Source: a virus. From it: a DNA stretch of 48,140 nucleotides. The number at the start of each line of letters is the position of its first letter. The first letter of the stretch is position 1. The notes beneath the pieces were generated by a model. The model did not search any database and had not been told where the DNA came from. It saw nothing but the letters and a program-made list of their open reading frames with translations. The stretch is taken from positions 1 through 48,140 of IMG/VR virus record IMGVR_UViG_3300001533_002025. One strand, written 5' to 3'. Positions 10,799-47,763 of the stretch are shown here, in pieces. The position numbers and the translations under genes are program-made.

Positions 10799-11032
10799 TT
10801 AAAATATTCCATTAGCTATAACAGCAACAATGATTGCAACTAAAAGAGCTGTAGTTCCAGAAATACTAGCTACTCTAACATCTCTCTTTGTATTACATCT
10901 TCTAATATATTTTAGTTCTTCTTTAATTTCTTTAAGTTCTATATTAATCGCTTTGATAGCATGAACTTGTTCTCCTCTCCATTTGTAAATGTTCATCCAT
11001 CTATCAAACATATCATTATTCTCATTAGCCAT
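10799..11032 (-). CDS. small coiled-coil protein with C-terminal membrane anchor
   Basis: 77 residues. A charged helical part (HAIKAINIELKEIKEELKYI) is followed by a single hydrophobic segment near the C-terminus (GTTALLVAIIVAVIANGIF). The architecture resembles XhlA-like lysis accessory proteins but the family match is uncertain. It overlaps the PAS-domain gene by 8 nt, so the two are probably translated together and may interact at the membrane. Confidence 0.6.
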   Translation of the reverse strand: MANENNDMFDRWMNIYKWRGEQVHAIKAINIELKEIKEELKYIRRCNTKRDVRVASISGTTALLVAIIVAVIANGIF

Positions 11033-11459
11033 CTATTACCCTCAAAAATGACAAAACACCAGACACTCCATTATATATTAATGGAACACACGTAATAAAA
11101 TATCTTTTGTTTTTATAAAGTTTTGACTTAAGATCTTTGTGTAGTACTTTTCTTCCATCCATACATTCTTTAGTTAACCAGTCTTTACTAGGAGGATTTT
11201 CATCACCCCAAAACACAGTCCACCAAGGTACATCCTCCTGATCTACATTCACTCCTTTATATTCAAGTAACTCTCTAAGTGGAGGATTCACATATACAAT
11301 ATTATCTTTAAGATCAGTAATCATTGCTGGTGTTTCTACTTCATTAAGAATAAATTTAGTGAAATTTAAAACACTAAAAGATTCATGATCTATAATATTG
11401 TATGCTAATTCTCTAGTTAATACTTCTAGATTCTTTATTCGTTCATCAAGATTCGTCAT
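11025..11459 (-). CDS. PAS-domain protein
   Basis: 144 residues. After a short helical N-terminus, residues about 35-140 read as a PAS fold: ETPAMITDLKDNIVYVNPP, then LRELLEYKGV, and C-terminal strands RYFITCVPLIYNGVSGV and LSFLRVID. PAS domains bind small ligands or mediate signalling contacts. There is no kinase or output domain. The gene is inside the head morphogenesis module and coupled to a membrane-anchored partner, so a ligand-gated role in assembly, lysis timing or host sensing is speculative. Confidence 0.7.
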   Translation of the reverse strand: MTNLDERIKNLEVLTRELAYNIIDHESFSVLNFTKFILNEVETPAMITDLKDNIVYVNPPLRELLEYKGVNVDQEDVPWWTVFWGDENPPSKDWLTKECMDGRKVLHKDLKSKLYKNKRYFITCVPLIYNGVSGVLSFLRVIDG

Positions 11460-13059: not shown

Positions 13060-14329
13060 TTTCTTCCTCCTCATCTATTTCCTCTTCTGGCTCTTCTTCT
13101 ACTTCGCCAGGTTTCTTTGGTACATTATCCATATTTTCTAAAGGAGAAAAGCCAAAAAAGGCTCTTATCTCGTTTTTAGTGAATGGCATGTCTCCTTCTG
13201 CAAAACCTCTTAATAAATTACCAAGCCATTTTGCTCTAAGCGCTTCGTCTTCTTCTGTAACATTATTGAATCTTAGACTAACTGAATCGACCTCAAATCC
13301 ATTCTTTTCAAGATATGGATTAAATAAATTTTCTCTTAAAATAATAGCAATATCATTTTGATAAGAACGAATCATTCTTTCATACATAATTGCTTTGATA
13401 CGCGCTGTGGCTTCCGTTGACCCTTTACCCATACCAAGAGCTTCTTCAGGACATAGGAGACCAACAACTAATTGTGTTTGGAAATAATTAAAATATTCTT
13501 CAACACCCTCAATTCCCTTTTCATCCATAGAGTCGAATTTAATGTACCAAGGAACAACAAATTCATTTTTTTCATTAATGTCTTCAAGCTCCTCTTTTAT
13601 ATCATCCATAACGTCAGGGGGTGGTATTTGTCCATCTTTTTCTGAACCAACATATATAATTGTTTTCTTAGTACCATGTCTTTTTATTGCATTAAATAAT
13701 GATTCATCCGTTGATACCTTTCTATCGATTGTATCTAAATTAGGTGCAATAAGAGACATTCCATACGGAGAACCAGGTATGTTAAAAAATTTAATATGAA
13801 TAATATCTTCAGGATCTAGAGGTGGTAACTCTTGCCCTCCAATATTTTGTTGATAGTTAATCACATCACCATGTTCATCAGCATTGACAATCATAGTTCG
13901 TGAATCTATACTCTTAAGTCTTGATATATCTTCCTTTTTGTTATATATCTTTTCTAGAAATGAATCACCAAAAACAAGTGTGGATGTTACTGCTTCCTTC
14001 AACACATGTTCAAGATTAATTCTCATACATAGTTTTTCTATGGCTTTCTTTGCATCTTTATCATCTGATACAATAGTATAACCAGACATAACAGTATTCC
14101 AAGTAATACTATTAATGGAAGCAAAAATTGTACCTTCTCCGTAATAATAGTCCCAGTACTTTCTAAGCATAGCTAAAGATCTTTCATTGGATGTGATTCC
14201 TTTAGATGCTGAACCACCAGTTCTTATAACTGTCTGTGGTTTACCATCATCAGTTAAATAACTTATCTTTTTCCGAAATGGATTTAATCTATTCAGACTT
14301 AATTTTGGGAATATTCTTTTTTTCGCCAT
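13034..14329 (-). CDS. portal protein
   Basis: 431 residues. It has the portal pattern of a basic N-terminus (LNPFRKK) and helices around YWDYYYGEGT. FGDSFLEKIYNKK, PEDIIHIKFF and PGSPYGMSLIAP are typical of the portal clip/wing region. A long C-terminal helix region and a very acidic tail follow. It lies after Alba and the large terminase and before the protease-like gene. The portal is the dodecameric ring through which DNA enters the head. The start overlaps the Alba gene by 41 nt. Confidence 0.85.
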   Translation of the reverse strand: MAKKRIFPKLSLNRLNPFRKKISYLTDDGKPQTVIRTGGSASKGITSNERSLAMLRKYWDYYYGEGTIFASINSITWNTVMSGYTIVSDDKDAKKAIEKLCMRINLEHVLKEAVTSTLVFGDSFLEKIYNKKEDISRLKSIDSRTMIVNADEHGDVINYQQNIGGQELPPLDPEDIIHIKFFNIPGSPYGMSLIAPNLDTIDRKVSTDESLFNAIKRHGTKKTIIYVGSEKDGQIPPPDVMDDIKEELEDINEKNEFVVPWYIKFDSMDEKGIEGVEEYFNYFQTQLVVGLLCPEEALGMGKGSTEATARIKAIMYERMIRSYQNDIAIILRENLFNPYLEKNGFEVDSVSLRFNNVTEEDEALRAKWLGNLLRGFAEGDMPFTKNEIRAFFGFSPLENMDNVPKKPGEVEEEPEEEIDEEEENDEDDTQT

Positions 14330-14582
14330 TTATAACAATCTCTATTGTGCTTACGTATCTTTCTTCAAATTTTTCGCTACCGATTTTAATATCGTATTTT
14401 GGGTTTTCTAGGTATTGCCTAAGTAAAATAGCAGCTACATCTACCGCACCCTTTACATTATTACCTCTTCCTATTATATTAATAGTATCAGTTTCACCAA
14501 GTGCAAAAAAACAAGCAGTTAGATACTTAGGTATCTCTTTATTACCTATATAAATTTTTTCTATGTTTTCATCAGAACTCAT
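14289..14582 (-). CDS. Alba-family nucleic-acid-binding protein
   Basis: 97 residues, close to the usual 90-100. It matches the Alba fold: an N-terminal IYIGNKEIPKYLTA strand-helix, INIIGRGNNVKGAVDVA (the conserved central loop and helix 2) and a C-terminal VSTIEIVI strand. Alba is an abundant archaeal chromatin and RNA-binding protein. The gene is between the large terminase and portal and overlaps the portal start. It might compact viral DNA, act in packaging, or bind host nucleic acid. It is the best evidence for an archaeal host. Confidence 0.85.
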   Translation of the reverse strand: MSSDENIEKIYIGNKEIPKYLTACFFALGETDTINIIGRGNNVKGAVDVAAILLRQYLENPKYDIKIGSEKFEERYVSTIEIVINGEKKNIPKIKSE

Positions 14583-14627: not shown

Positions 14628-16094
14628 TTAAATTTTTTTAAATGAATACCCACCACTTTTAGTTGAAATAATATCTTTGGTTCTAGACCAATCAATTATC
14701 CCACCTTCATGTGAAGCTTGTATAGCAAAGGATAAACTATCTATGGTATCATCGTGAGATCCTCTAGGATAAACTCTTAATTCACTAACCAAATGTTCAC
14801 ATGATGGGTTTAATAATATTCTATTAGTTTCAAATAATATTGATAAACGATCCATTCTTGTTTCTCTATCATTCACAATGGATGATTTTATTGGAATTAT
14901 TGGTAATGTTGGATTATCTTTAATGAGATCATCTGTTATTATTTTTTGTTGTGCTACTGCTTCTATACCTATTCTAGAAGGATTTATATTGTCATCAATA
15001 TCCTTTATAATTTCTATTTGTCTATGAAGAGATGCGTGTGTCCTTATATTTTTAAGAACGTATATGTTACCTTCTTTTTTACTAGTTCCAATTACTGTTA
15101 GAGAAAAGTAGTCACTTTTATCCTCACTACCACCAAAATCTACTCCAACATATTTCTTCATATCTGCTGGATATATTCCTTCCAAATATTTAAAGCCTTT
15201 TATTGATTTTTCAAGCCACTCTTCTTTGAATGTTGAAATTCCTGTTGCAATAATATTATTTTGATATTGCATCTGGAAATAACGTTCTCCTTGATGTTCT
15301 CTTATGAATTGAAGTGTAAGGGTATCCTCTGGTAGATTGTATTCTTTTATCATATCTTTGTCCCATGGTAAATGTTCAGGCCATAGAACTTTAGCTTTCT
15401 TACCATCAATCACGTCTTCCTCATTTAGAAGTGCTTTGTATTTCATTGATTTATAACCAGCTTTCTTCATTAGATAACTATGAAAATCATCTTGCTGCCA
15501 TCTAGTTCCAATATTTATTACTTTTGTATCTGATAGAAATGTTCCAACTAAAGGCCCATTATACCAATCTTCAAGTTTTTCTCTTCTAGACTCTGTTCTA
15601 GAATTTTCATCATCTGTAATATCATCAAGAACAATAAGATCATAATGTCCAGAAATAATTCTTGAACCAACACCTAAAGTCTTTACTGTTGGATCTTTCA
15701 TTCTAGAATCTTTTACTTTTATTTTCGACGCTGACCATTCACCAAATCCTTTATATTCACCAAAAAGATCTTTAAGTTTTGTATTTTCACTTAGGTGTGT
15801 TTTGATGAAAGACATCATGTCGTTAGCTTTATCTTGATTAATAGTAACTAATAATATTCTAATATTTCGATCCCTAACTATTCTCCATATAATATAGGAA
15901 CCTACTATGGAAGTTTTACCATGCCCACGAGGAGCTAGTAAAACAGTAAATCTATTATTCTCAAATGCATCTATCCACTCTTTGTGGAAATCCTTACATT
16001 CAAGATCTAGTACATATTTTGTGAAATATTCACAATCATTAAAACATTTAATTATGTTCTTTTGTCTATCATTAAGTTCATCTAATGCATTCAT
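14628..16094 (-). CDS. large terminase subunit (TerL)
   Basis: 488 residues. The ATPase domain has a Walker A motif (LLAPRGHGKTS, about residues 52-62), a Walker B motif (YDLIVLDD, about 151-158) and a coupling motif near NIGTRWQQDD. The C-terminal RNase H-like nuclease has acidic residues in YVGVDFGG (about 319), IGIEA and SHDDTIDSLS. It packages viral DNA through the portal and cuts concatemers. It is separated from the small subunit by about 700 nt of membrane-protein and structured-RNA sequence. Confidence 0.92.
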   Translation of the reverse strand: MNALDELNDRQKNIIKCFNDCEYFTKYVLDLECKDFHKEWIDAFENNRFTVLLAPRGHGKTSIVGSYIIWRIVRDRNIRILLVTINQDKANDMMSFIKTHLSENTKLKDLFGEYKGFGEWSASKIKVKDSRMKDPTVKTLGVGSRIISGHYDLIVLDDITDDENSRTESRREKLEDWYNGPLVGTFLSDTKVINIGTRWQQDDFHSYLMKKAGYKSMKYKALLNEEDVIDGKKAKVLWPEHLPWDKDMIKEYNLPEDTLTLQFIREHQGERYFQMQYQNNIIATGISTFKEEWLEKSIKGFKYLEGIYPADMKKYVGVDFGGSEDKSDYFSLTVIGTSKKEGNIYVLKNIRTHASLHRQIEIIKDIDDNINPSRIGIEAVAQQKIITDDLIKDNPTLPIIPIKSSIVNDRETRMDRLSILFETNRILLNPSCEHLVSELRVYPRGSHDDTIDSLSFAIQASHEGGIIDWSRTKDIISTKSGGYSFKKI

Positions 16095-20774: not shown

Positions 20775-21026
20775 ATGAGTAGATACGCAACAGTAGATAA
20801 GAAATTGAAAGTTTGGAAGAACCCAAAAGGTTATGAAATTTGGAAAAGAAAAGATACAGGAAAAATAGTCTATGCACATAGAAAACTCTATGAGATGTTC
20901 TATGGAAAACTTCAACCTTTTGAAGTAGTCCACCATCTAAAAGGTAAAGCAAATAATCTAAACAATCTAACAAAAATGCACAAAGTAGAACATGATAAAC
21001 TACATAGAAATAGAAGGGAGATGTAA
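20775..21026 (+). CDS. HNH-type (homing-like) endonuclease
   Basis: 83 residues. The C-terminal half has the HNH_3-like pattern VVHHLKGKANNLNNL then EHDKLH, with catalytic His-His, Asn and His. The N-terminal part (YEIWKRKDTGK, YAHRKLYE) resembles the small beta domain preceding HNH in phage homing endonucleases. It lacks zinc-binding CxxC pairs. It may be a selfish endonuclease or act in viral DNA processing. Confidence 0.7.
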   Translation: MSRYATVDKKLKVWKNPKGYEIWKRKDTGKIVYAHRKLYEMFYGKLQPFEVVHHLKGKANNLNNLTKMHKVEHDKLHRNRREM

Positions 21027-21030
21027 AAAA

Positions 21031-21963
21031 ATGAAAAGAAATATTAGTATAGATAAATTAGAAGAAGAATTAGAGGCAAGTGAACATCTAAAATCTAACA
21101 TAATAAATCAGGAAATTAAGTGTAGATATACCAATAGAAATATTGCCCAAAAACTTACTGCAATAGAATGGTATAACAAATACGGAAAACAAGATAATCT
21201 ACAAACAGGAAATACCTATAAAGGAAAACATATAGAACAAACAAAACCTCTTAACTTTGGAAGTATAGATGACTATAATATAGATACACTTCCAAAAGGG
21301 TTGTTTCATTGTAAAGGCACAGAAATAACACAAGTTAAGGAAATAGATTATAGAAAAAAGAAACTAATAAATAGAAGGTTTCTATCTAATATTCTACAAA
21401 CTTGGTGTTACTTTATGGGAATTAAGTATATAGATAATACTGATAAGTACGAATTTACAGGAACAAAATTATGGGGGAAAGAATTAGAGTACTCTATAAA
21501 TCTAAAAGATAAATCTGCTATTTTCCTAACAGGAAAGCAGGGAAAACAGATGATTAGAGATATTATATTCCTATCCAGAAATAAAAGACTATCTAAAATG
21601 AAAGACTATATAGAAAACAAAAAAGTTAGTCCACAAATGTATAGAACAATACTATATAGAGTACATTCCGAAAAGAAAACATTTGATGAAATCTTACAGG
21701 ATATAAAGAGTAGAGTATTCTATGATTATAGCATAGGAGAATATGCTTGGGCTTATCCTAAATATAATATAGAATATCTAACGAGAACCTTAAGGGAATT
21801 ATCAACAGAAAAATACTTTCTATCTATACTTATTCCTATAATAGAACATCTACGGAAATATCCGATTATCTGTAAAGATACCCATGTGTTTCCTAAATCA
21901 GATGAAGAGCACAACAAAGCAAAAGATGATTACGATATTTCGCAACATATATGGGAAAGATAA
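21031..21963 (+). CDS. unknown early protein
   Basis: 310 residues from the ATG at 21,031; the frame is open further upstream but overlaps the HNH gene. It is the largest protein of the early region. It is Lys/Arg/Tyr-rich, with a central WCYFMGIKYID segment and no recognisable motif. Last gene before a 500-nt control gap. A replication or transcription role is possible but unsupported. Confidence 0.6.
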   Translation: MKRNISIDKLEEELEASEHLKSNIINQEIKCRYTNRNIAQKLTAIEWYNKYGKQDNLQTGNTYKGKHIEQTKPLNFGSIDDYNIDTLPKGLFHCKGTEITQVKEIDYRKKKLINRRFLSNILQTWCYFMGIKYIDNTDKYEFTGTKLWGKELEYSINLKDKSAIFLTGKQGKQMIRDIIFLSRNKRLSKMKDYIENKKVSPQMYRTILYRVHSEKKTFDEILQDIKSRVFYDYSIGEYAWAYPKYNIEYLTRTLRELSTEKYFLSILIPIIEHLRKYPIICKDTHVFPKSDEEHNKAKDDYDISQHIWER

Positions 21964-28275: not shown

Positions 28276-28490
28276 TGACAAAAGATAAGATATATGATTT
28301 TGGTATATTAGGTAAATTTTCAAGAACTACTCTAATAGAATTAAAACAAGTTAGGAGAAGAATATATCCTAAATGTATAACATTATATATTGAGTATATT
28401 GAGTATAGTGTATTTGTTGGTAACTCCGACAAACTCCGACAAATCATTAAAGATATTTATGAGGATGGAAAAGAAAATGAAATATTATAA
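28275..28490 (+). CDS. small basic protein starting at the tRNA 3' end
   Basis: 71 residues. The start ATG shares its A with the last base of the tRNA CCA, so if the tRNA is processed normally, this message would lose its first base. RTTLIELKQVRRRIYPKC suggests a basic helical protein. It overlaps the next gene. No family recognised. Confidence 0.45.
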   Translation: MTKDKIYDFGILGKFSRTTLIELKQVRRRIYPKCITLYIEYIEYSVFVGNSDKLRQIIKDIYEDGKENEIL

Positions 28491-29061
28491 AGTATTGGAT
28501 ATGAATCAAAATAGTTGTAATGGTGGAGATGCACAATGGAAAAAAGGTGTATGGATGCCTAAGATACAGGGTAAACTTATTCCTTGTTTTAATGGTTATC
28601 ATCTTTGTCGTAAAAAGGATTTAACTCATTGGTTGGATGAGGAAATATGGATAGCTGAGGGTAGAGGTAGAAAAATTGTTGATGATAATAAGGTTGTTTT
28701 TAGTGAAGCAAGAATAATTGAAAAATTTGATACTTGGAATGAAAAAACTGCTCGTTTATTTGCTTGTGATTGTGCTGAACATGTTTTAAAATATTTTGAA
28801 GAAGAATATCCTGATGATGATAGAGTTAGGAATTGTATAAATGTTGCTAGAATGTATGCAAATGGTGAGGTGACAATAAGAGAATTAAAATTAGCAGAGT
28901 CAGCAGCAGGGTCAGCAGGGTCAGCAGTATGGTCAGCAGTATGGTCAGCAGCAGGGCCAGCAGCAAGGTCAGCAGCAAGGTCAGCAGAGTCAGCAGCAAG
29001 GTCAGCAGAAATAAAATGGCAAACAAAAAGATTATTTGAATATCTTGAAGGTAGGATATAA
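28477..29061 (+). CDS. DUF7666-like protein with alanine-rich repeat tail
   Basis: 194 residues from the ATG at 28,477. Residues 1-120 match a family common in phages: YKVLDMNQNSCNGGDAQW, then LIPCFNGYHLCRKKD and ARLFACDCAEHVL. It is followed by an Ala/Ser repeat (SAVWSAVWSAAGPAARSAAR, about residues 140-177) and a terminal WQTKRLFEYLEG. The repeat DNA is listed separately. Biochemical function is unknown; such tails probably form a helical or beta-solenoid extension. Confidence 0.7.
   Translation: MKYYKVLDMNQNSCNGGDAQWKKGVWMPKIQGKLIPCFNGYHLCRKKDLTHWLDEEIWIAEGRGRKIVDDNKVVFSEARIIEKFDTWNEKTARLFACDCAEHVLKYFEEEYPDDDRVRNCINVARMYANGEVTIRELKLAESAAGSAGSAVWSAVWSAAGPAARSAARSAESAARSAEIKWQTKRLFEYLEGRI
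28893..29008 (+). repeat. in-gene tandem repeat (GGTCAGCAG units)
   Basis: About ten degenerate units of GGTCAGCAG with CAA, CA or TAT spacers, encoding the Ala/Ser/Arg/Trp repeat of the surrounding gene. It is strikingly G+C-rich for this genome, so repeat number probably varies by slippage. Confidence 0.8.
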
Positions 29062-29259: not shown

Positions 29260-29491
29260 AAAGAAAAGATATCTAGAAAAGAAGATTAAAGATATTGAAA
29301 ATACTAGTATTAACACCTCATTTATATTTAGAGATAAAACATATACAATTAAAGACATAGATAATTATTTAAAGAAATTAGAAACATTAAGATTTTCACT
29401 TAACAATCTAGAAAAAGGTTTTAGAGAATATCAAAAAGTAATGTTAGAAATAAGTAAATATTATAACGGCAGAGATGGTGTAGTTGATTAA
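29243..29491 (+). CDS. possible gene fragment without start codon
   Basis: A frame of about 80 codons reading YLEKKIKDIENTSI, then KDIDNYLKKLETLRFSL and NLEKGFREYQKVML. Its coiled-coil-like composition looks genuinely coding. No ATG, GTG or TTG lies near its beginning, and it overlaps the previous gene and the tRNA-His. It may be a +1 continuation of the upstream zinc-ribbon gene, or a decayed gene. Confidence 0.35.
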   Translation, partial: EEKYFKKKRYLEKKIKDIENTSINTSFIFRDKTYTIKDIDNYLKKLETLRFSLNNLEKGFREYQKVMLEISKYYNGRDGVVD

Positions 29492-29541
29492 CATTATAGT
29501 TTGTGGAACTATAGAGATGAGTTCAAATCTCATTCTTTGCC
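29469..29541 (+). tRNA. tRNA-His (GTG)
   Basis: A complete cloverleaf: acceptor GCAGAGA/TCTTTGC, D stem GTGT/ACAT, anticodon stem ATAGT/ACTAT with loop TTGTGGA (anticodon GTG at 29,503-29,505), and T stem ATGAG/CTCAT with loop TTCAAAT. Position 73 is C and the base before the acceptor (29,468) is G, the G-1:C73 identity pair of tRNA-His. CCA is not encoded. The stop codon of an upstream frame lies inside it. Confidence 0.9.
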
Positions 29542-29543
29542 CT

Positions 29544-30600: not shown

Positions 30601-31536
30601 ATGTTAATAAATAGAAGTAGACCAGCCCTAGAAATTTATGCTGATATTTCAAGATACTACAAAAAGAAAAACACAAACAAATTAAAGTTATCTAAGAAAC
30701 CAGTAGTTGAGATTAGTAATATAACATCAGATATGAGTCTTTACCCATCATGTAGAGAAATATTAATTGATAAACTACGTACAAAGTTAGAGAATGCTAT
30801 AATTAATAAAAAAGTAGAATCCAATCCATATAAATTAATCCCAACTGCATACATAGAAGATTTAGATATTCCATTAAAATTCTTAATAAAAATGATACCA
30901 ACTAATATGAACGATATGAAAATGATAAAAAGTAAAAAAAACCAAGATATTCTAAAAGAAGTTTTAAATTATATATTAGGAATTATAGGAGTTTGTTTCT
31001 ATCATCAAAAAGATGAAGTGTTACGTAGAGAAAATAATGTTGGAACTTCTGGTAATATATCAATATATAAAGACGAAGAGGAAACTTACAATATAGATTA
31101 TAATGTTCTTTCACCTAAATTTATGACTAGTCCCATACTTATTTCTTTTATTAGTGGTTTAGCGAGAGATTGTATAGGAACAGTATCAGGATTACCCAAA
31201 GATATTATTAATAAAGAATTACTTTCAAAATATGATAAAAAAGAAATAGATAGAGTAATAAATGAAACTGATTACAAAACTGCTAAGAAAATATTTAATA
31301 AAACTCTAATTCCATTCTTTAGTAAACACTTTGAAATTAATGGATTACTCTCTTCTAAAAATAAAATAACTACTCTCAAAGAATTAGTAGATAAAGATAC
31401 GATTGATATATTTAGACCTAATAGAACTATAAACCATTGGAGAAGATATAGTAATCTATATGGTTATAATAGATTTAGTTCTTATATAAGAAGTCCATAT
31501 AGCGTACTATTATATGATAATTATAGGAGAGTATAA
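30601..31536 (+). CDS. degenerate amidoligase paralogue
   Basis: 311 residues. The C-terminal two thirds align with the amidoligase at 33,759. LNYILGIIGVCFYHQ corresponds to FDYLAGIMSVLLSNG, RRENNVGTSGNISI to RRKYYGEAGTYRI, and SPILISFISGLARD to SPFIASLMSGLMRD. KTAKKIFNKTLIPFFS corresponds to KKARVIWEQIIKPLYE. It lacks the N-terminal GGDPE metal-binding motif and the GGHIHLG motif, so it probably has no ligase activity. A regulatory partner, substrate carrier or structural protein is possible. Confidence 0.65.
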   Translation: MLINRSRPALEIYADISRYYKKKNTNKLKLSKKPVVEISNITSDMSLYPSCREILIDKLRTKLENAIINKKVESNPYKLIPTAYIEDLDIPLKFLIKMIPTNMNDMKMIKSKKNQDILKEVLNYILGIIGVCFYHQKDEVLRRENNVGTSGNISIYKDEEETYNIDYNVLSPKFMTSPILISFISGLARDCIGTVSGLPKDIINKELLSKYDKKEIDRVINETDYKTAKKIFNKTLIPFFSKHFEINGLLSSKNKITTLKELVDKDTIDIFRPNRTINHWRRYSNLYGYNRFSSYIRSPYSVLLYDNYRRV

Positions 31537-33758: not shown

Positions 33759-34856
33759 ATGAAAAAGTTAAGCCCAAGTATTGGTGGAGACCCTGAATTC
33801 TTTATATTTGGGGATATAAAAGGAAAACATAAAATAATATCGGCAGATAAGATATTAACAGGAAAAGAAAACAAAAAAGAATGTACAAGTGGAAGTTATT
33901 TCTTTGATGGTGTACAAGCAGAAATAAATCCATCACATAACAATTGTAGAGAATTCTTTTGTAGAAATATACAAGGGTGCTTAAAGGATGTATACAATAT
34001 AGCAAAGAAGAAATATGATAATATAGAGTTCCAACCATTAGCATCTATTAAGATACAAAAGTCAGATGTAAAAGGTGCAGATAATGAATGTCTAAGATTT
34101 GGTTGCTCACCAGATTTTAATATATATTCTGATGAAGAAAAAACATATCCTGATGGTAAAAGATTTATGACTAGATTTTCAGGTGGACATATACATCTAG
34201 GTTTCTCTAGTATTAACTATATGAAAAAGATGAAAGACCCAGACGTATTATATAGACTAATAAAATCATTTGATTATCTTGCAGGAATTATGTCAGTATT
34301 ACTTTCTAATGGAGAAGAAGAACATATTAGAAGAAAATATTATGGTGAGGCAGGAACTTATAGAATACAGAAACATGGAATAGAATATAGAACATTATCA
34401 TCATTCTGGTTAGTATCTCCTTTCATTGCTTCTCTTATGTCAGGACTTATGAGAGATGCCTTCACATTTGTATATCATAATAAAGAGAAAGAACTTCTAT
34501 TTGATAAAATTTCAGAGGAAGTTGTTATTAATACAATAAATAATTTAGATGTAAAGAAAGCCAGAGTAATATGGGAACAAATTATTAAACCATTATATGA
34601 AGACTTTAATATGAATATTAGTTCTCCATTACAACATGAATATGTAAGAAACCTTATAGATTATATGATTTCTCATGGTGGTTATCAATCAGTATTTAAT
34701 CCTAAGTATATGATAAATTATTGGTATCTATCAAAAGATTTAAAAACAATAGATAATATGGAATATCAATGCACATATGGAATTAAAAATCTTGCATTCG
34801 ATATAGAAACAAAATATTTGAAAATAGAAGATATTAGAAATATAGGAGAAGAATAA
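33759..34856 (+). CDS. phage-type amidoligase (COOH-NH2 ligase)
   Basis: 365 residues. Motifs in order: IGGDPEF (residues 8-14), FDGVQAEINP (about 49-58), GGHIHLG (142-148), then RRKYYGEAGTYR (191-202) and IEYRTLS (208-214). These are the Mg/ATP-binding and substrate residues of the glutamine-synthetase-fold amidoligases described in phages. They form amide or isopeptide bonds between a carboxylate and an amine using ATP. It is the first gene of a tight operon with a class II GATase (2 nt apart) and a GCS2-like ligase. Substrate unknown. Confidence 0.8.
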   Translation: MKKLSPSIGGDPEFFIFGDIKGKHKIISADKILTGKENKKECTSGSYFFDGVQAEINPSHNNCREFFCRNIQGCLKDVYNIAKKKYDNIEFQPLASIKIQKSDVKGADNECLRFGCSPDFNIYSDEEKTYPDGKRFMTRFSGGHIHLGFSSINYMKKMKDPDVLYRLIKSFDYLAGIMSVLLSNGEEEHIRRKYYGEAGTYRIQKHGIEYRTLSSFWLVSPFIASLMSGLMRDAFTFVYHNKEKELLFDKISEEVVINTINNLDVKKARVIWEQIIKPLYEDFNMNISSPLQHEYVRNLIDYMISHGGYQSVFNPKYMINYWYLSKDLKTIDNMEYQCTYGIKNLAFDIETKYLKIEDIRNIGEE

Positions 34857-34858
34857 TA

Positions 34859-36289
34859 ATGTGTGGAATCGCAGGTGTAATATCCCAAGACAAAAGAGTA
34901 CCTTTTGATAAGTTTACACAAGTTATGTCTTTAACTCTTTTATTTGAGTTACAAAAAAGAGGTGAACATGCTTGGGGTGTATATCTAGAGAAAAAAGGAA
35001 AAGAAAACAATAAGTTATATTGTGGAAAAGAAGATAACAAAATGACTGGTGAACTATTTAAAAGTAAAAATAGTGTAAGTACATTCTTTGAAACAACTAA
35101 AAGTAAAATATATCTAAAGAATACACATACTATGTTAATGCATACAAGAGCAACAACATCTGGTAGTCCAGAAAATAATGAAAACAATCACCCATTCTCA
35201 ACTGATAGTTATATACTTGCACATAATGGAGTAATAAGAAACGATGATGAAATATATAAGAATTTTAATATAGAACACAAAGGAATAGAATGTGATTCTT
35301 ATTCAATTATAAGTCTTATCCAACACTTCCATAATGAAGGTTTTGAAACTAGTAAAGCAATTGAGAAAACATCAGAACATATAAAAGGGTCTTATGCTTG
35401 TTGGTTATATGATAAAGAAACTAATGATGTATATTTATTTAGAAAATCAAATCCAATAGAATACTATTTTGATGAAGAAAGAAAGTTATTTGTATTTGCA
35501 TCAATTGATGATTATGTTGTAGACGCTTATAATATAGATGAAGTATCAACAACTGATTTAAGCGTATTAGAAAAAGAAAAGATATTTCTTCTAAAGAAAG
35601 ATGAACTAGAAGAAGTTGGAGAATTGAAAACTCCTAAATCAACAACTACAACTAGTTCAGGTAGATATTATAGTGGATATTCAGAACACCAATATAATTA
35701 TAGTAATAGATTTAATAAAGAAACTAATGACACAGAGTCAAAAATAAATAAATCCCTCAAAGAATTATATTACTTATTTAGGAAGTTTGAAAAGAAACCA
35801 CCTAAAGAAGCAGAAACAATTATTGGTATGATGAATGGTAGAGTTGTTATTCTTGTAGAACCAGATGATTTAAGAGATTTATTAGATGAATCAGGATTTG
35901 AGAAGTATAAACAAAAAGGTAAAGTATATGGTAGTCGATATTATATGTACGAAATTTCTCCTATATTAAATATTGTAAAACTAACAAGTGTTTTAATGAA
36001 TGAATCCATAGGAGAACTTACATCTAAAGACAGAAGACATCAACTTAAAGAATTAGCAGAAACAATAGATTGCGAGTTTTGTATATTTGATAACCAATAT
36101 CGTTTTAAATATATAAAATCTTCTAGTGTTCCTGAATGGATAAAGAAAGCATTATCTAAACGTGGTCTTAACTTCCGTAAAGATAATACTATTAGATTAG
36201 ATATTAATCAAATTCATGAGAAAAAATTAGATAATGTTCTCAAGGATTTAAAACTTAAAAGAGATGAATATATATGTCTAGCAAATTAA
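34859..36289 (+). CDS. class II glutamine amidotransferase with novel C-terminal domain
   Basis: 476 residues. The N-terminal Ntn-hydrolase domain starts with the catalytic Cys at position 2 (MCGIAGV). It has RGEHAWGV (about 34-41), MHTRATTSGSP (about 93-103), NNHPF, LAHNGVI (about 119-125) and CDSYSI, as in GlmS- and PurF-type GATases. It frees ammonia from glutamine. The C-terminal about 220 residues, after a Ser/Thr/Tyr-rich linker, match nothing I recognise and replace the usual synthase domain. It overlaps the next gene by 16 nt. Confidence 0.82.
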   Translation: MCGIAGVISQDKRVPFDKFTQVMSLTLLFELQKRGEHAWGVYLEKKGKENNKLYCGKEDNKMTGELFKSKNSVSTFFETTKSKIYLKNTHTMLMHTRATTSGSPENNENNHPFSTDSYILAHNGVIRNDDEIYKNFNIEHKGIECDSYSIISLIQHFHNEGFETSKAIEKTSEHIKGSYACWLYDKETNDVYLFRKSNPIEYYFDEERKLFVFASIDDYVVDAYNIDEVSTTDLSVLEKEKIFLLKKDELEEVGELKTPKSTTTTSSGRYYSGYSEHQYNYSNRFNKETNDTESKINKSLKELYYLFRKFEKKPPKEAETIIGMMNGRVVILVEPDDLRDLLDESGFEKYKQKGKVYGSRYYMYEISPILNIVKLTSVLMNESIGELTSKDRRHQLKELAETIDCEFCIFDNQYRFKYIKSSSVPEWIKKALSKRGLNFRKDNTIRLDINQIHEKKLDNVLKDLKLKRDEYICLAN

Positions 36290-37263
36290 ATGTAGATGAT
36301 TGGTTAGAAACAGGAAGTAAGAAAATTGAATGTGGTGTTGAATTAGAGTTATTACTATTTAATTCTAAAACTAAAGAACCAGTACACAAAGCATCTTTAA
36401 CAGAATCTATACTCTCTAAACTACCAAGACAAATTTATAAAGATTATTACCCATATCAATTAGAAATAAGAACAAAACCACATTCATCACCTAATAAAGT
36501 TATAAATGAAACCAAAGACTTATACCTTATGGCTAGTAAAGAATTTATGAAAGAAGGAATATATATTATTCCAGCCCCATCTATAACTAGAACTGGTTTT
36601 GTTTATTGTGGATTACATATTCATATCAGTTATCCAAATGATAGAACTCTAGAAAACTATTATAAAAGAGCGATGGGTTTATATCCATTCATCTTATCTC
36701 TTGCTGACCATACTAAAAATCTTGAAATGTCAGATATAGAGATGTCAGATAGAATAAAATCATCACACCATATAGGAACACCTTTCCTTGATAAAGATGC
36801 ATTTCTAAATCCTAGAGAACCTAATCACAAGTATAGAGATTTAATATACAGTCCCAGTAATCAATCCTCTTCTAATAGAAGTAGAATGAAGAAACCATCT
36901 ACCATAGAGTTAAGATTATTTGATACTCCTTCTCTTTTTGATATGTATAAATTCATAGTACGATATACTATGTTATTATCTAGTAGAATTAAAACCAATA
37001 ATCCTATGCTTAAGATGTTAAATAAGAATAAATATGATACAATTAATAAACTCAATATGACACGTAAACTTTTAATTGAACAAAAGTATGGTGTAAATAA
37101 ATTATTTAGAATGTTAAATTCAGATGTGTGTGAAGATATATCTAAAGAATTAAAAATAGATTTTCCACGTGAAACACAATTTGAATTTAGAGAAAGATTA
37201 GGATTATCAGCAAATGTTAATGGATTTTTATCTATGGCAACTAAAGGTGGCTGGTTAGATTAA
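36274..37263 (+). CDS. GCS2-like carboxylate-amine ligase
   Basis: 329 residues. CGVELELLLF (20-29), YQLEIRTKP (61-69), CGLHIHISYPND (112-123) and TIELRLFDTPS (about 210-220) are the metal- and ATP-binding motifs of the glutamate-cysteine-ligase type 2 / YbdK superfamily. These enzymes couple a glutamate-like carboxylate to an amine. It overlaps the GATase gene and so probably works with it, directly or as the second ligase in a two-step pathway. Substrate unknown. Confidence 0.78.
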   Translation: MSSKLNVDDWLETGSKKIECGVELELLLFNSKTKEPVHKASLTESILSKLPRQIYKDYYPYQLEIRTKPHSSPNKVINETKDLYLMASKEFMKEGIYIIPAPSITRTGFVYCGLHIHISYPNDRTLENYYKRAMGLYPFILSLADHTKNLEMSDIEMSDRIKSSHHIGTPFLDKDAFLNPREPNHKYRDLIYSPSNQSSSNRSRMKKPSTIELRLFDTPSLFDMYKFIVRYTMLLSSRIKTNNPMLKMLNKNKYDTINKLNMTRKLLIEQKYGVNKLFRMLNSDVCEDISKELKIDFPRETQFEFRERLGLSANVNGFLSMATKGGWLD

Positions 37264-37267
37264 AATC

Positions 37268-37358
37268 TTCATTTTAAGCAAAAATACACTTTAACCCTTG
37301 TCTTACCATTAGGAAGAAAAGATATTGCGTTAGCGTTGCTTAAAATCAATCCTCAAGT
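37268..37358 (+). ncRNA. repeated structured RNA element, copy D (diverged)
   Basis: GAAAAGATATTGC (37,315-37,327) and ATCAATCCTCAAG (37,345-37,357) match the two conserved blocks of copies A-C. The upstream part (TTAACCCTT, ACCATTAGG) is only loosely similar. It separates two parts of the amidoligase island and lies 45 nt before the second GATase start codon, with a TATATAGAATATATA sequence between. Confidence 0.45.
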
Positions 37359-37402
37359 AAAATAAAGTTATTATATAGAATATATATTAGGAAGTTAGAC
37401 TT

Positions 37403-38452
37403 ATGTGTGGAATTATAGCATATATTGGAAAAAAGAATGAAACAATTGGAAACCTCTTAACAAATGCACAATTCAATATTCATCGTGGAGATGAAGGATT
37501 AGGCATTATTTACGAAGAAGGTGAAAATGTTTCTATAAGAAAAGTGTTATACGAAATAGATGAAGTAATTAACGGCGAACTTGGTAAATGGAGAACAATT
37601 AAATCTAAAAGACTAGGTTCTATTGAAACAACAATATTCGATGAAAACAAATACAAAAGAATGAATAAAAAGTTTAATAAATTCTCTAAAGAAATAAGAA
37701 ATACAGAATCTAATTTCATTTTTATACATCATAGAAAAGCAACTTATGGAGATAAGGTAATTAAAAACTTACACCCAATAAAAATTAATAATAAATACTA
37801 CATCCATAATGGAACTTCTTGGGGTATAGATGCAGTTAGAAATTATCTTGAGATATTTAAAGGTGAGGAATTTAATAGTGATACTGATACAGAAGTTATA
37901 TCTAAATTATATAATAAACTTTTAGATAAGTATGAAAATGATAAAGACAAAGTATATAGTACATTTTCTGAATTAGTTACTAATGGATGGGGAGTTCTAA
38001 TAGAAATAAATCCAATTAATAAAGAAGTAACTATAATAAAAGATGAATTAAGAACTTTATGGTTATATACTCTAAAAGATGATAGTCAAATATTAGTAAG
38101 TGAACCAACTCCATTCATAAAAAATATTAAATCACTTCATAAAATTGAATCAGGAATATTCACATTAAAAGACTCTAGTTTATATACAAGAGATTATACA
38201 GAATTTGCAATAAAATCACATAACTGGTGGAAAGATGCAAAAGATGATGATATAAAACTTAAGAAATGTGAAATATGTGGTACAAAGAAATATACATTAT
38301 CCACTTGGGAATGTAATGACCATCCATATAAAAGAAAAAATGAAGATAGATGTTTTGAATGTTTTGTAGAGAATAAAAAGAAAAATAAAGAAGATTCAGA
38401 TGAGATTAAACAACAAAATAAAAAGGAAGAGATAGCACAATATATAGGTTAG
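37403..38452 (+). CDS. class II glutamine amidotransferase with C-terminal zinc ribbon
   Basis: 349 residues. MCGIIAY with catalytic Cys2, HRGDEGLGI (about 28-36), HHRKATYGDK (about 109-118), NLHPI, YIHNGTSWG (about 133-141) and SDTDTEVI complete the GATase II active site. From about 295, CEICG-x8-WEC and CFECF make a zinc ribbon, absent from ordinary GATases and possibly a docking or nucleic-acid-binding element. It is followed 7 nt later by the ATP-grasp gene. Confidence 0.82.
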   Translation: MCGIIAYIGKKNETIGNLLTNAQFNIHRGDEGLGIIYEEGENVSIRKVLYEIDEVINGELGKWRTIKSKRLGSIETTIFDENKYKRMNKKFNKFSKEIRNTESNFIFIHHRKATYGDKVIKNLHPIKINNKYYIHNGTSWGIDAVRNYLEIFKGEEFNSDTDTEVISKLYNKLLDKYENDKDKVYSTFSELVTNGWGVLIEINPINKEVTIIKDELRTLWLYTLKDDSQILVSEPTPFIKNIKSLHKIESGIFTLKDSSLYTRDYTEFAIKSHNWWKDAKDDDIKLKKCEICGTKKYTLSTWECNDHPYKRKNEDRCFECFVENKKKNKEDSDEIKQQNKKEEIAQYIG

Positions 38453-38459
38453 ATGAAAA

Positions 38460-39245
38460 ATGAAAGTATATTTAAGACAACCTAAAATTACATTCTCAAA
38501 AGACTTTGTTAATACGATAAAAAAACATGGTATAGTATTAACAAGAGGAAACAAATTTATTAGAAACGGTGTAATGATAAATCATGGAAATCCAAAAGAT
38601 ATAAAAATAGGTAGAAAAGTAAATACATTCTATCTCATTAACAAACCAAACTATATTAAATACTGTTCTAATAAAGCAAAAAACATAGATATACTAAAGA
38701 AGTATTACCCAAAGACATTCAATAATGTAGAAGATATCAAAGATAAAGACTTTCCAATAATAGCAAAACCATTAAATGGTCATCATGGATATGGTATAGA
38801 AATATTCGATGATATTACATCTTTATCATCTTTCGTACATTCAATTAAAGAACCTTACATTCTACAAAGATACATACCAATTAAACATGAATATAGATTT
38901 AATGTATTTGATAAAACTATATATCAGGTAAGTCATAAACAAAAACTTGATGCCAGAACAGATAAAGGTGGGCTACTATTCTCTTATCGTTCTTTAGGTT
39001 CTAATGCTGGTATATCAGATAAATTCTGGAACTTTATAGATAATGTTATAAAAGATTTTCATGATGTAATAGATATTAATCTAGGAGATTATTGTATTGA
39101 TGTTATCAAAGGACAAGATAAGGAATATTATTTATCTGAAATTAATTCAGCATATGGTATAGGGAATTATACTCTTGAAAAATTAATAACTATTATTGAT
39201 AATAAAATAAGAAAAGGTGAATTGGAAAAATATAGGGTGGTATAA
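38460..39245 (+). CDS. ATP-grasp ligase
   Basis: 261 residues. PIIAKPLNGHHGYGI (99-113) provides the ATP lysine and glycine-rich loop. LQRYIPIKHEYRFNVF (135-150) and YCIDVIKG then YLSEINSAYGIG (about 222-246) give the acidic Mg-binding residues of the ATP-grasp fold, as in RimK/D-Ala-ligase type enzymes. It activates a carboxylate as acyl-phosphate and joins it to an amine. It forms a pair with the preceding GATase and abuts the next gene. Confidence 0.8.
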   Translation: MKVYLRQPKITFSKDFVNTIKKHGIVLTRGNKFIRNGVMINHGNPKDIKIGRKVNTFYLINKPNYIKYCSNKAKNIDILKKYYPKTFNNVEDIKDKDFPIIAKPLNGHHGYGIEIFDDITSLSSFVHSIKEPYILQRYIPIKHEYRFNVFDKTIYQVSHKQKLDARTDKGGLLFSYRSLGSNAGISDKFWNFIDNVIKDFHDVIDINLGDYCIDVIKGQDKEYYLSEINSAYGIGNYTLEKLITIIDNKIRKGELEKYRVV

Positions 39246-39901
39246 TGAAAATAAAGGTAACAACAAAAGACAACAAAACAAAAACACTTTATCTATTTGA
39301 TAAAAACCTTAGAACGATAATTAGTAGTGTTAGTGAAGAAATAGATTTAAAAACGATAGATAAAGTTAAAGTTGAGATGAGATTTTCATTTAATGATTTA
39401 AGTAGAGTAGAAGAATTAAAATCAAATATTGAAACATATAACATTGTTTCTAATAGTAAATGTAGTATTAAAGAGATAAATGATTATATATTTAGTATAG
39501 TCATCGTTGGTAAATTAACAGATTCAATATCAATATTACAATCTTTAAATCTAATGAACTTTAAATCAGTAGATACATTAATGAAAAATGATATTAACTT
39601 TATCAAAAATTTAATGAACAAAAGACACGATAGATACGATTATAATTATAGTCTAATAATAAAATATTTATCAGATAATAATTGTAATCTACCATATAGT
39701 AGAATATATGATATGCTAACTAATTATAATAATAAAGCATTTATCAATAAAGTCTTATTACCATTATTTAAAGAATTATATAATTGTGAAATAAACGAAG
39801 CTAGGATTAAAGATTCAACAGATAAATTATCATTACAGAGTATAAATGAAAATACTCTAAAAGAAATAGAAGTTTATGTAAGGAGTAGAGTAGATGGCTA
39901 A
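39245..39901 (+). CDS. unknown protein next to the ligase island
   Basis: 218 residues, helical after an N-terminal beta part (KIKVTTKDNKTKTLYLFDKN). Its ATG overlaps the stop of the ATP-grasp gene and its 3' end overlaps the next gene. No family recognised. It may supply or bind the substrate of the ligases. Confidence 0.55.
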   Translation: MKIKVTTKDNKTKTLYLFDKNLRTIISSVSEEIDLKTIDKVKVEMRFSFNDLSRVEELKSNIETYNIVSNSKCSIKEINDYIFSIVIVGKLTDSISILQSLNLMNFKSVDTLMKNDINFIKNLMNKRHDRYDYNYSLIIKYLSDNNCNLPYSRIYDMLTNYNNKAFINKVLLPLFKELYNCEINEARIKDSTDKLSLQSINENTLKEIEVYVRSRVDG

Positions 39902-43872: not shown

Positions 43873-44655
43873 ATGAAATATGCAAAAATCACCCATATAT
43901 CAAAATCCTTACGCAATAAAATCCTAGAATTATTAAAGAGTGTAGAGAAAGTATATAATATTAATATCCTTTTTGCTATTGAATCAGGCAGTAGACTATG
44001 GAGAATAGAAAGTAAGGATTCAGATTATGATATACGATTTGTTTACACTAGAAGTAAAAAAGAGTATCTTTCATTAGATAAGTATAGAGATGTAATTGAA
44101 TATACAAAAGGAGACTATGATTTAGTTGGTTTTGATATATATAAATTCTTACACTTATTAGAAAAAAGTAACCCTTCTGTAATAGAATGGTTATATAGTG
44201 ATATAATATATAAAGACAATAAAATAAAAAATAAACTAAAATATCTAATAACGTATGAATTTAAACCTATTGCATTATTTTATCATTATAGCAGTATGTG
44301 TAAAAGAAATTATTATGATTATCTCAAATCATCTAAAGAATTAACATATAAAAAATATCTTTATTCTATGCGTGGTCTTATAAATGCAAAGTATGTTTAT
44401 ATGTATGAAAAAATACCACCAGTAAAACTTGAAGATACTATTTCCAAAATTGATTTACCAGAAGATGTAGAAAAAAAGATAAGAGAAATTATCGATATTA
44501 AAAAGAAAGGTGATGAGAAAGATTATATATCAAGACTTCATCTATTTGAAAAATATATAGAAAAGTTTTTAGATTCAGAGTATAGAATCAATAGTAATAA
44601 TACTTATCTAAGAGATGAACTTAATAACGTTTTATATAATATATTAGGAGTCTAG
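43873..44655 (+). CDS. RlaP-like nucleotidyltransferase
   Basis: 260 residues. AIESGSRLW (about 35-43) and DSDYDIRF (about 49-56) are the GS and DxD motifs of polymerase-beta-fold nucleotidyltransferases. DYDLVGFDIYKFLHLL and NPSVIEWLYSD follow, as in the RlaP/PF10127 family linked to RNA repair. A helical C-terminal domain follows. It is 2 nt before a phosphoesterase and close to an RNA ligase. It may add nucleotides to, or prepare, broken RNA ends. Confidence 0.75.
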   Translation: MKYAKITHISKSLRNKILELLKSVEKVYNINILFAIESGSRLWRIESKDSDYDIRFVYTRSKKEYLSLDKYRDVIEYTKGDYDLVGFDIYKFLHLLEKSNPSVIEWLYSDIIYKDNKIKNKLKYLITYEFKPIALFYHYSSMCKRNYYDYLKSSKELTYKKYLYSMRGLINAKYVYMYEKIPPVKLEDTISKIDLPEDVEKKIREIIDIKKKGDEKDYISRLHLFEKYIEKFLDSEYRINSNNTYLRDELNNVLYNILGV

Positions 44656-44657
44656 TA

Positions 44658-45293
44658 ATGAAAATATGTGCATTATCGGATTTACATGGATATTTAAATA
44701 TAGAAATACCAGAGTGTAACATTCTTATATTAGCAGGAGATATAAGTTGGAATGGAAATTATAAATGGTATTCAGAAGTATTTTGTGATTGGCTAACTAA
44801 AATACAAAAACAATTCGATATTTGCTTTCTTGTATTTGGTAATCATGATGATAATATATATATGGATAAATCAAATGAAGATATATATAAAAATTTACCA
44901 GATAATGTTATTATATTAAATAATGAGAATTATGAATATAAAGGTATAAAATTCTTTGGTTCTCCTAATTGTAGATATATTCATGGATTTAGAAATACAA
45001 TGTCAGAAGATACATTAGAATATATGTATAATAAAATGGATAAAGACGTAGATATTGTTATTACACATTCACCACCATACGGAATTGGTGATGTATCTAA
45101 AGGAAATGAAATACATCTGGGAAGTATTTCTTTATTTAAACAAATAGAAGAAGTTAAACCAAAAATACATATATTTGGACATGTACATTCTGGAAATAAA
45201 TACACAAGACAAAATAAAACAGACTTCTATAATGTAAGTATTTTAAATGAGAATTATAAATTAGAATATCCAATAACTTGTGTAGATTATTAA
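44658..45293 (+). CDS. calcineurin-like metallophosphoesterase
   Basis: 211 residues with all family motifs: SDLHG (7-11), AGDIS (about 31-35), FGNHDD (about 65-70), ITHSPPYG (about 135-142) and FGHVHSG (about 173-179). These bind two metal ions and hydrolyse phosphomono- or diesters. Set between a nucleotidyltransferase and an RNA ligase, it may remove 3' or cyclic phosphates from cleaved RNA. Confidence 0.8.
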   Translation: MKICALSDLHGYLNIEIPECNILILAGDISWNGNYKWYSEVFCDWLTKIQKQFDICFLVFGNHDDNIYMDKSNEDIYKNLPDNVIILNNENYEYKGIKFFGSPNCRYIHGFRNTMSEDTLEYMYNKMDKDVDIVITHSPPYGIGDVSKGNEIHLGSISLFKQIEEVKPKIHIFGHVHSGNKYTRQNKTDFYNVSILNENYKLEYPITCVDY

Positions 45294-45306
45294 TGAGGAA
45301 TTATAT

Positions 45307-46206
45307 ATGACAAATTTTATGAAATACCCAAAGATTAAGATAATTGGTGATGAGGATAATAAAGAATTATTTTCTAATCCAGAAGATGAAATCGTAATAG
45401 AAGAAAAAATAGATGGGGCTAACTTTAGATTCTATATTAAGGATAATAACATTATCTTTGGTAGTAGAAATCTTATTTTAGATAAAGATGCTGAGAGAAG
45501 TAAATCATGGGGTAAGTGTATAGAATATATTAAAGATATATTTAGCCATGATAATATTAAATTCTATAATGATTTGATTTTCTTTGGTGAATGTTGTATA
45601 AGACATTCTACACCATATGATTTTGATAAGATGCCACCATTTCTAGGATTTGATATATTTAATCTTAATACAAATGAATTCTTAGATTTAGAAGATTGTA
45701 AAAGAACATATTCAGACTTAGGTATTGAATTTGTTCCAATAATAGAAATAACTAAAGTAGGAAAGATAAAAGAATTTAGAGATGAAGATATTCCTAAATC
45801 AAAATATTATGATGGGCAAGCTGAAGGTATAGTTCTAAAGAATTATCAAGAACAAATCTTCGCTAAGTATGTAACAGATAAACATAAAGAAAGAAATATC
45901 CAAACATATGGTGGTTCTAAGAAATGGGCTCAAACAGATACAGCAAAAATATCTGCTATGTTTTGTACTAACCCACGTATTGAAAAGAAGATATTTGAAT
46001 TAATACATGAAGGAAAGAAACTAGAAAAACCTCTTATGAAATGGTTACCTCAAAGAGTATGGGAAGATATAAGAGAAGAACATTATAAAGAAATACTACA
46101 CAAGAATTATAAAATTGATGTTGGTAAGTTAAGAAGACTTATTGCAAAAAGATGTCTTTATGTTCTAGAAAACATGATTCAAGATAGTGCATTTAATAAG
46201 GAATAA
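45307..46206 (+). CDS. Rnl2-like RNA ligase
   Basis: 299 residues. The nucleotidyltransferase motifs are EEKIDGANF (catalytic Lys about 34), FGSRN, FFGECC (motif III), FLGFDIFN (IIIa), AEGIVLKNY (motif IV) and AKYV (motif V). A basic C-terminal domain follows. The lysine is adenylylated with ATP and RNA 3'-OH and 5'-phosphate ends are joined. It is third in the cassette with the nucleotidyltransferase and phosphoesterase. Confidence 0.82.
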   Translation: MTNFMKYPKIKIIGDEDNKELFSNPEDEIVIEEKIDGANFRFYIKDNNIIFGSRNLILDKDAERSKSWGKCIEYIKDIFSHDNIKFYNDLIFFGECCIRHSTPYDFDKMPPFLGFDIFNLNTNEFLDLEDCKRTYSDLGIEFVPIIEITKVGKIKEFRDEDIPKSKYYDGQAEGIVLKNYQEQIFAKYVTDKHKERNIQTYGGSKKWAQTDTAKISAMFCTNPRIEKKIFELIHEGKKLEKPLMKWLPQRVWEDIREEHYKEILHKNYKIDVGKLRRLIAKRCLYVLENMIQDSAFNKE

Positions 46207-47151: not shown

Positions 47152-47763
47152 ATGACACAAGTATTTTTTACATCTGATTGTCATTTCGACCATGCTAATA
47201 TTATCAAATTTTGTGATAGACCATTTTGGAGAAATAACGATTTAGTTGGTGAAGGGAAGATTGCTAGTAGAGTATGGGTTTCTGATAAAAGAAAGATAGA
47301 ATGTTGTCAATGGATGAATGAAACTTTAGTTAAAAAATGGAACTCTAAAGTTAAAAATGAAGATATTATATACCATATTGGAGACTTTGCATTCAAAGGT
47401 AGTAATAATACAAGAAAATGGGAAGAGAAATTAAATGGAAGTATTGTTCATATTCAAGGTAATCATGATTTAAATAATGGTGTAAAAACATTCATAGTAA
47501 AGTGTATTATGGAATTTGGTAATAAATCAATTCTTGTTCAACATCATCCACCACATACAATACAAGAAATACCTGAATGGTGTGATTTTGTACTATGTGG
47601 ACATGTTCATGATAAATGGAAACATAAAGTAATAGAAGGTATTCCTATTATTAATGTTGGTGTTGATGTATGGGATTTTGAACCAGTATCAGTTGAATCA
47701 ATTCTAAAATACTTTCATCTAGTAAAAAATAATTTAGTAAATGAGAAGGGAGAGAGAATATGA
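47152..47763 (+). CDS. calcineurin-like metallophosphoesterase, second
   Basis: 203 residues: TSDCHFDHANI (7-17), HIGDFAF (about 77-83), IQGNHD (about 100-105), VQHHPPH (about 126-132) and CGHVHDKW (about 146-153). This is the phage type often annotated as phosphohydrolase, distinct from the protein at 44,658. Substrate unknown; it may act on RNA ends or on nucleotides. Confidence 0.78.
   Translation: MTQVFFTSDCHFDHANIIKFCDRPFWRNNDLVGEGKIASRVWVSDKRKIECCQWMNETLVKKWNSKVKNEDIIYHIGDFAFKGSNNTRKWEEKLNGSIVHIQGNHDLNNGVKTFIVKCIMEFGNKSILVQHHPPHTIQEIPEWCDFVLCGHVHDKWKHKVIEGIPIINVGVDVWDFEPVSVESILKYFHLVKNNLVNEKGERI

Follow-up and report, generated by a model that had tools for sequence, protein, structure and literature searches.

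A divergent phage-type amidoligase cassette in a probable archaeal tailed virus

The viral DNA analyzed here (IMG/VR record IMGVR_UViG_3300001533_002025; the whole stretch of 48,140 nt is referred to as the window) contains five adjacent plus-strand open reading frames (ORFs) at 33759-39245 that are predicted to encode enzymes of amide bond formation. The favored reading, to which we assign a probability of roughly 0.5, is that an archaeal tailed virus here carries a complete, though divergent, version of the phage amidoligase cassette, which would generate glutamine-fed amide or peptide bonds on an acceptor other than murein. By sequence comparison the island is no new kind of system but a variation on a cassette that is widespread among phages. 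What is new is the probable archaeal host, the replacement of a PF12224 amidoligase by a GCS2-type ligase, the presence of a pseudo-ligase, and the lack of a detectable GGCT gene in the window.

Organization of the island

An earlier note on this DNA had described an amide-bond island of five enzymes, and all five ORFs were recovered on one strand with families assigned by Pfam, PHROGs, and NCBIfam. Profile matches (PF14395, two to PF13522, TIGR02050, and ATP-grasp) bear out its enzyme classes, confirming at the level of sequence a COOH.NH2 ligase, a class II glutamine amidotransferase (GATase), a GCS2/YbdK-type ligase, a second class II GATase, and an ATP-grasp ligase. Neighboring ORFs overlap or are separated by no more than 139 nt, and sequence comparison indicates that catalytic residues are kept in all five enzymes. 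The island and the two ORFs considered with it are as follows.

30601-31536, + strand: predicted pseudo-ligase, paralogue of the 33759 ligase (311 aa; BLASTP, profiles)
33759-34856, + strand: phage phiEco32-like COOH.NH2 ligase type 2, GS fold (365 aa; PF14395, phrog_3815)
34859-36289, + strand: class II glutamine amidotransferase 1, GATase 1 (476 aa; PF13522)
36274-37263, + strand: divergent GCS2/YbdK-type carboxylate-amine ligase (329 aa; TIGR02050, HHalign)
37403-38452, + strand: class II glutamine amidotransferase 2, GATase 2 (349 aa; PF13522)
38460-39245, + strand: ATP-grasp ligase, R2K/RimK/TTL-like (261 aa; three Pfam models)
39245-39901, + strand: protein without a family match (218 aa; included by position only)

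Profile searches gave matches to PF13522 and, above cut-off, to PF14395 and three ATP-grasp Pfam models. The PF12224 enzyme that the earlier note had expected is absent from the window, and its slot is occupied by the GCS2-type ligase. The start of the 39245-39901 ORF overlaps the ATP-grasp stop by 1 nt, and its product, which has no match in Pfam, PHROGs, or NCBIfam, is possibly an extra member of the operon. PADLOC returned no defense-system match.

The COOH.NH2 ligase and its inactive paralogue

The product of 33759 matches PF14395 above the Pfam cut-off (E 7.6e-12) and the PHROGs COOH.NH2 ligase family phrog_3815 (E 1.4e-41). It is 26-29% identical to phage homologues, with which it has D11, E13, H144, H146, E209, and R211 in common. 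An AF2 model computed from a 36-sequence alignment reaches a mean pLDDT of 86.3. The top PDB matches of this model in Foldseek are YbdK, glutamine synthetase, and glutamate-cysteine ligase (GCL), with E values of 2e-5 to 1e-3 and TM scores of about 0.5 or lower, and the viral library returns phage COOH.NH2 ligases (E 1.3e-15). The predicted structure thereby confirms the GS/GCS fold that had been anticipated for the first ligase.

A sixth gene, overlooked in the earlier note, lies about 2.2 kb upstream of this ligase. The product of 30601-31536 matches that of 33759 (BLASTP 8e-13) and scores E 6e-25 and 2.2e-17 against ligase profiles. Both HxH and ExR are kept in 100 of 104 rows of the ligase family, but the 30601 product keeps neither: the segment with HxH is missing and the ExR position reads DxN. 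These changes indicate a catalytically dead paralogue, or pseudo-ligase. A quick family tree gives this paralogue a very long branch (3.99), too long for its origin to be taken from the tree. Cassettes with two to three diverged PF14395 ligase copies are found in several IMG/VR loci (L023, L026, L035, and L085 are examples from L015-L094), and ligase duplication thus appears to be recurrent.

The GCS2-type ligase

The second ligase is divergent. The product of 36274 has no Pfam match above cut-off, PF04107 included, and its NCBIfam match to TIGR02050 (YbdK/GCS2 type; E 6.1e-6) scores 25.8 bits, far under the curated cut-off of 176.4 bits. Further evidence comes from HHalign against a GCS2 profile of 32 members, assembled from Escherichia coli YbdK and archaeal relatives, which aligns with 93.9% probability over 241 columns and places GVELE, GLHIHI, and TIELR in register with the ExE, HxH, and ExR motifs. 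Against the same profile, none of 60 shuffled copies of 36274 exceeds 1.1%, and 1.0% is the highest value among 26 other ORFs of the window. Membership in PF12224 was considered and rejected, as the window has no PF12224 match and HHalign with a phage PF12224-type amidoligase profile gives 26% over only 17 columns.

The difference between these probabilities identifies 36274, by profile comparison, as a divergent GCS2/YbdK-type ligase in the slot usually filled by a PF12224 amidoligase, in agreement with the GCS2-like call made earlier. It resembles GCS2/YbdK ligases (TIGR02050, PF04107) in the length of the alignment and the register of its motifs, but differs from them in falling far below the curated cut-off and in adjoining a GATase within a viral cassette. 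Searches of Thermoplasmatota genomes with 36274 returned short fragments only. The single-sequence AlphaFold model of this protein (pLDDT 33) was not used.

The amidotransferases and the ATP-grasp ligase

Both GATases begin with Met-Cys-Gly and have Cys2 as nucleophile. GATase 1 matches PF13522 (E 7.6e-13, Pfam) and GlmS N-domain chains in the PDB; it has the conserved residues C2, H95, R97, H111, N123, G124, and D146, followed by a C-terminal extension of about 260 aa with no fold assigned. GATase 2 also matches PF13522 (E 7.3e-9, Pfam), scores 4e-40 against a profile of cassette GATases, and ends in a ribbon-like CxxC...CxxC segment. GATase 2 did not arise as a recent copy of GATase 1.

The 38460 product passes the Pfam cut-offs of three families, R2K_2 (1.7e-6), TTL (1.9e-5), and RimK (9.5e-5), leaving its clade within the ATP-grasp ligases ambiguous. 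It keeps E144, R146, K160, D214, E227, and N229 of a 74-member family of cassette ATP-grasps. R2K ATP-grasps have been proposed to act as protein-peptide ligases (PMC4431377). The 38460 enzyme is like R2K_2, RimK, and TTL ligases in its intact ATP-grasp residues and predicted peptide-ligase chemistry; unlike them, it has GATases and GS-fold ligases as gene neighbors. For R2K.2, gene linkages are described as few (PMC4431377).

Relation to the phage cassette

Scans of IMG/VR that used 33759, 36274, or GATase 1 as single sequences turned up no close relatives. The ligase family alignment recovered relatives where those scans had not, yielding 80 IMG/VR loci that were gathered by the COOH.NH2 ligase alone and in which partners were counted within 10 kb. 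Class II GATase is present in 72 of the 80, ATP-grasp in 65, and a PF12224-type amidoligase in 63, frequencies that are not explained by chance clustering. All four core genes occur in 56/80 loci. Together with the named phages below, this survey of neighborhoods establishes that the linkage exists in other viruses. GGCT is within 10 kb in 41 loci and missing in 39, and is thus not strictly defining for the cassette. None was found in the window by profile search.

Among phage records, tblastn detects the PF14395 ligase in 311. Pseudomonas phage tf has the order ligase, hypothetical protein, amidoligase, GATase, ATP-grasp, and GGCT, and similar sets are found in other phages. PMC5498523, citing Iyer and Hardies, lists LUZ24, tf, phiEco32, 7-11, RIO-1, PSA-HP1, and CW02 as phages with the cassette. 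For RIO-1-like phages the same paper speaks of a "peptidoglycan modification cassette" that is presumed to guard against superinfection (PMC5498523). No experimentally determined product of the cassette was found in the open-access literature searched, nor was an amidoligase cassette in an archaeal virus described there.

The window shares with these phages a PF14395 ligase, a class II GATase, and an ATP-grasp enzyme in one same-strand block, as well as a second GS-fold ligase. It differs in that the second ligase is of the GCS2 type rather than PF12224, in its two GATases, in the dead paralogue of the first ligase, and in its probable archaeal host. Two GATases occur in 5 of the 80 loci; one of these, L016, has the order ligase-GATase-amidoligase-GATase, the same alternation as the window. 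Profiles score "ORF87" of phage EP335, annotated as an aminotransferase, as an amidoligase, and it was therefore left out of the count of second GATases. Given these five loci, and since two GS-fold ligases with a GATase and an ATP-grasp are the standard phage set, the description of the island as "unusually rich" was an overstatement. Archaeal tailed viruses phiCh1 and ChaoS9 likewise carry a class II GATase, but as a single gene with no ligase or ATP-grasp partner mentioned (PMC8651126).

Evidence for an archaeal host

The earlier note had also spoken of an archaeal virus, a view now supported by evidence it did not contain. Two genes of the packaging module are central.

14289-14582, - strand: Alba-family (archaeal chromatin protein) gene (PF01918 1.2e-7, above cut-off)
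14628-16094, - strand: terminase large subunit (phrog_38 4.5e-84)

The Alba gene lies between the terminase and portal genes. Terminase relatives are 46-63% identical in IMG/VR and 49% identical in a 4.1-kb Thermoplasmata MAG contig, the only match in the genome collection. Alba occupies this position in each of the nine terminase relatives (eight from IMG/VR and the MAG contig) and is absent from all 50 other virus contigs that carry a cassette. As a control, the Alba profile was run on 14 genomes and matched in two archaea only. The Alba gene and the one 4.1-kb MAG contig point to a virus that is probably an archaeal tailed virus. Host domain is decided neither by ribosome-binding sites nor by the tRNA-His gene. 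No cassette was seen in the terminase relatives, whose records are fragments.

A match of the ligase profiles to the relatives L007 and L008 was rejected, as what aligns there is a short helical stretch inserted in the Alba gene and not a ligase. These Alba genes (L007:4041-4427 and L008:3863-4249) carry the helical insert INKEDxKLAKKLIKQM, which resembles INNxDxxxA, a conserved C-terminal motif among COOH.NH2 ligases; the resemblance may be due to chance.

Other genes in the window

An RNA-repair block at 43873-46206 encodes in a row an RlaP nucleotidyltransferase (PF10127 1.5e-59), a calcineurin-like phosphoesterase, and an RNA ligase (PF09414 2e-25), and another calcineurin-like phosphoesterase is encoded at 47152-47763. 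The product of 28390-29061 has an Imm5-like immunity-protein domain (PF21805, 3.5e-13) and short SA-rich repeats in its C-terminal tract. One tRNA-His gene, with CCA not encoded, is at 29469-29542, and a PAS-like domain protein is encoded inside the structural-gene arm at 11025-11459.

Proposed pathway and alternatives

In the proposed pathway, each class II GATase would supply one of the two GS-fold ligases with ammonia taken from glutamine. These ligases would use ATP to activate carboxylates for amide or gamma-glutamyl-type bonds; the ATP-grasp enzyme would extend the product by a further amino acid or attach it to its acceptor. The pseudo-ligase may partner or regulate the active ligase. 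The analysis shows the enzyme families, the intact catalytic residues, the gene linkage, and the archaeal-type genes, and from these we infer how ligases and GATases pair, in what order they react, what the pseudo-ligase does, and which acceptor is used. The order ligase-GATase-ligase-GATase suggests two ligase-GATase pairs; the single GATase that serves two ligases in most relatives counts against pairing. Because archaea are not known to make murein, we take a protein or a small molecule of the host cell, with modest confidence, to be the most likely acceptor. A more specific version of the favored reading is tentative, and we hold it at less than even odds: the cassette would make a murein-independent peptide-amide conjugate on a protein or metabolite, conserved in bacteria and archaea, and the window would add two ligase-GATase pairs and a pseudoenzyme subunit.

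Alternatively, the cassette might alter the peptide bonds of a wall polymer and so block superinfection, the polymer being murein in bacteria and pseudomurein or another envelope polymer here. The pseudomurein of some archaea does contain gamma-glutamyl and isopeptide bonds. Envelope modification is also the published hypothesis for phiEco32 and RIO-1 phages (PMC5498523, PMC10580990, PMC11318856). Against this, no pseudomurein endoisopeptidase was recognized among the ORFs scanned, and the virus has its sole cellular relative in a Thermoplasmata MAG. Thermoplasmata generally lack pseudomurein, to our knowledge, and the absence of murein from archaea noted above weighs in the same direction, making envelope modification unlikely for this virus.

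Auxiliary metabolism is a somewhat poorer candidate. During infection the enzymes would adjust glutamine and glutamate pools or produce either a gamma-glutamyl thiol or a small metabolite, with no macromolecular target. The resemblance of the GCS2-type ligase and the GATases to metabolic enzymes is consistent with such a role, and the GGCT of many related loci fits small gamma-glutamyl compounds. However, the ligase families are phage-specific rather than recent copies of host genes, and the GGCT itself was not found in the window.

The earlier note had listed a hypermodified base among the candidate products, and some phage pathways of base hypermodification include amidoligases and amino-group transfers. 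Synthesis of such a base or nucleoside is very improbable here, because the ORFs scanned include no partner gene: no hydroxymethylase, thymidylate-synthase homologue, glycosyltransferase, or nucleotide kinase. Least credible is an assembly chimera of an archaeal virus head module and the early region of an unrelated bacteriophage: G+C is about 33% in the left arm and drops to 25% in the right arm, and support from relatives ends at about 22 kb of the window, but between 24 and 48 kb composition and skew stay uniform, and a head module collinear with that of relatives, together with a match in relative L013 to the right-arm gene 20992-21963, which is divergent from the terminase in both, argues against it.

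Implications

Cassettes of this type have usually been guessed to remodel the bacterial wall, and the occurrence of one in a probable archaeal virus calls that guess into question. If the virus is archaeal, as is probable, peptidoglycan cannot be the universal target of the cassette, since archaea, as far as we know, do not make murein. The replacement of one ligase family by another and the retention of a pseudo-ligase reveal parts of the pathway that are replaceable. With a complete copy in a domain free of murein, the peptidoglycan hypothesis becomes testable, and the cassette may act on a target common to both domains.
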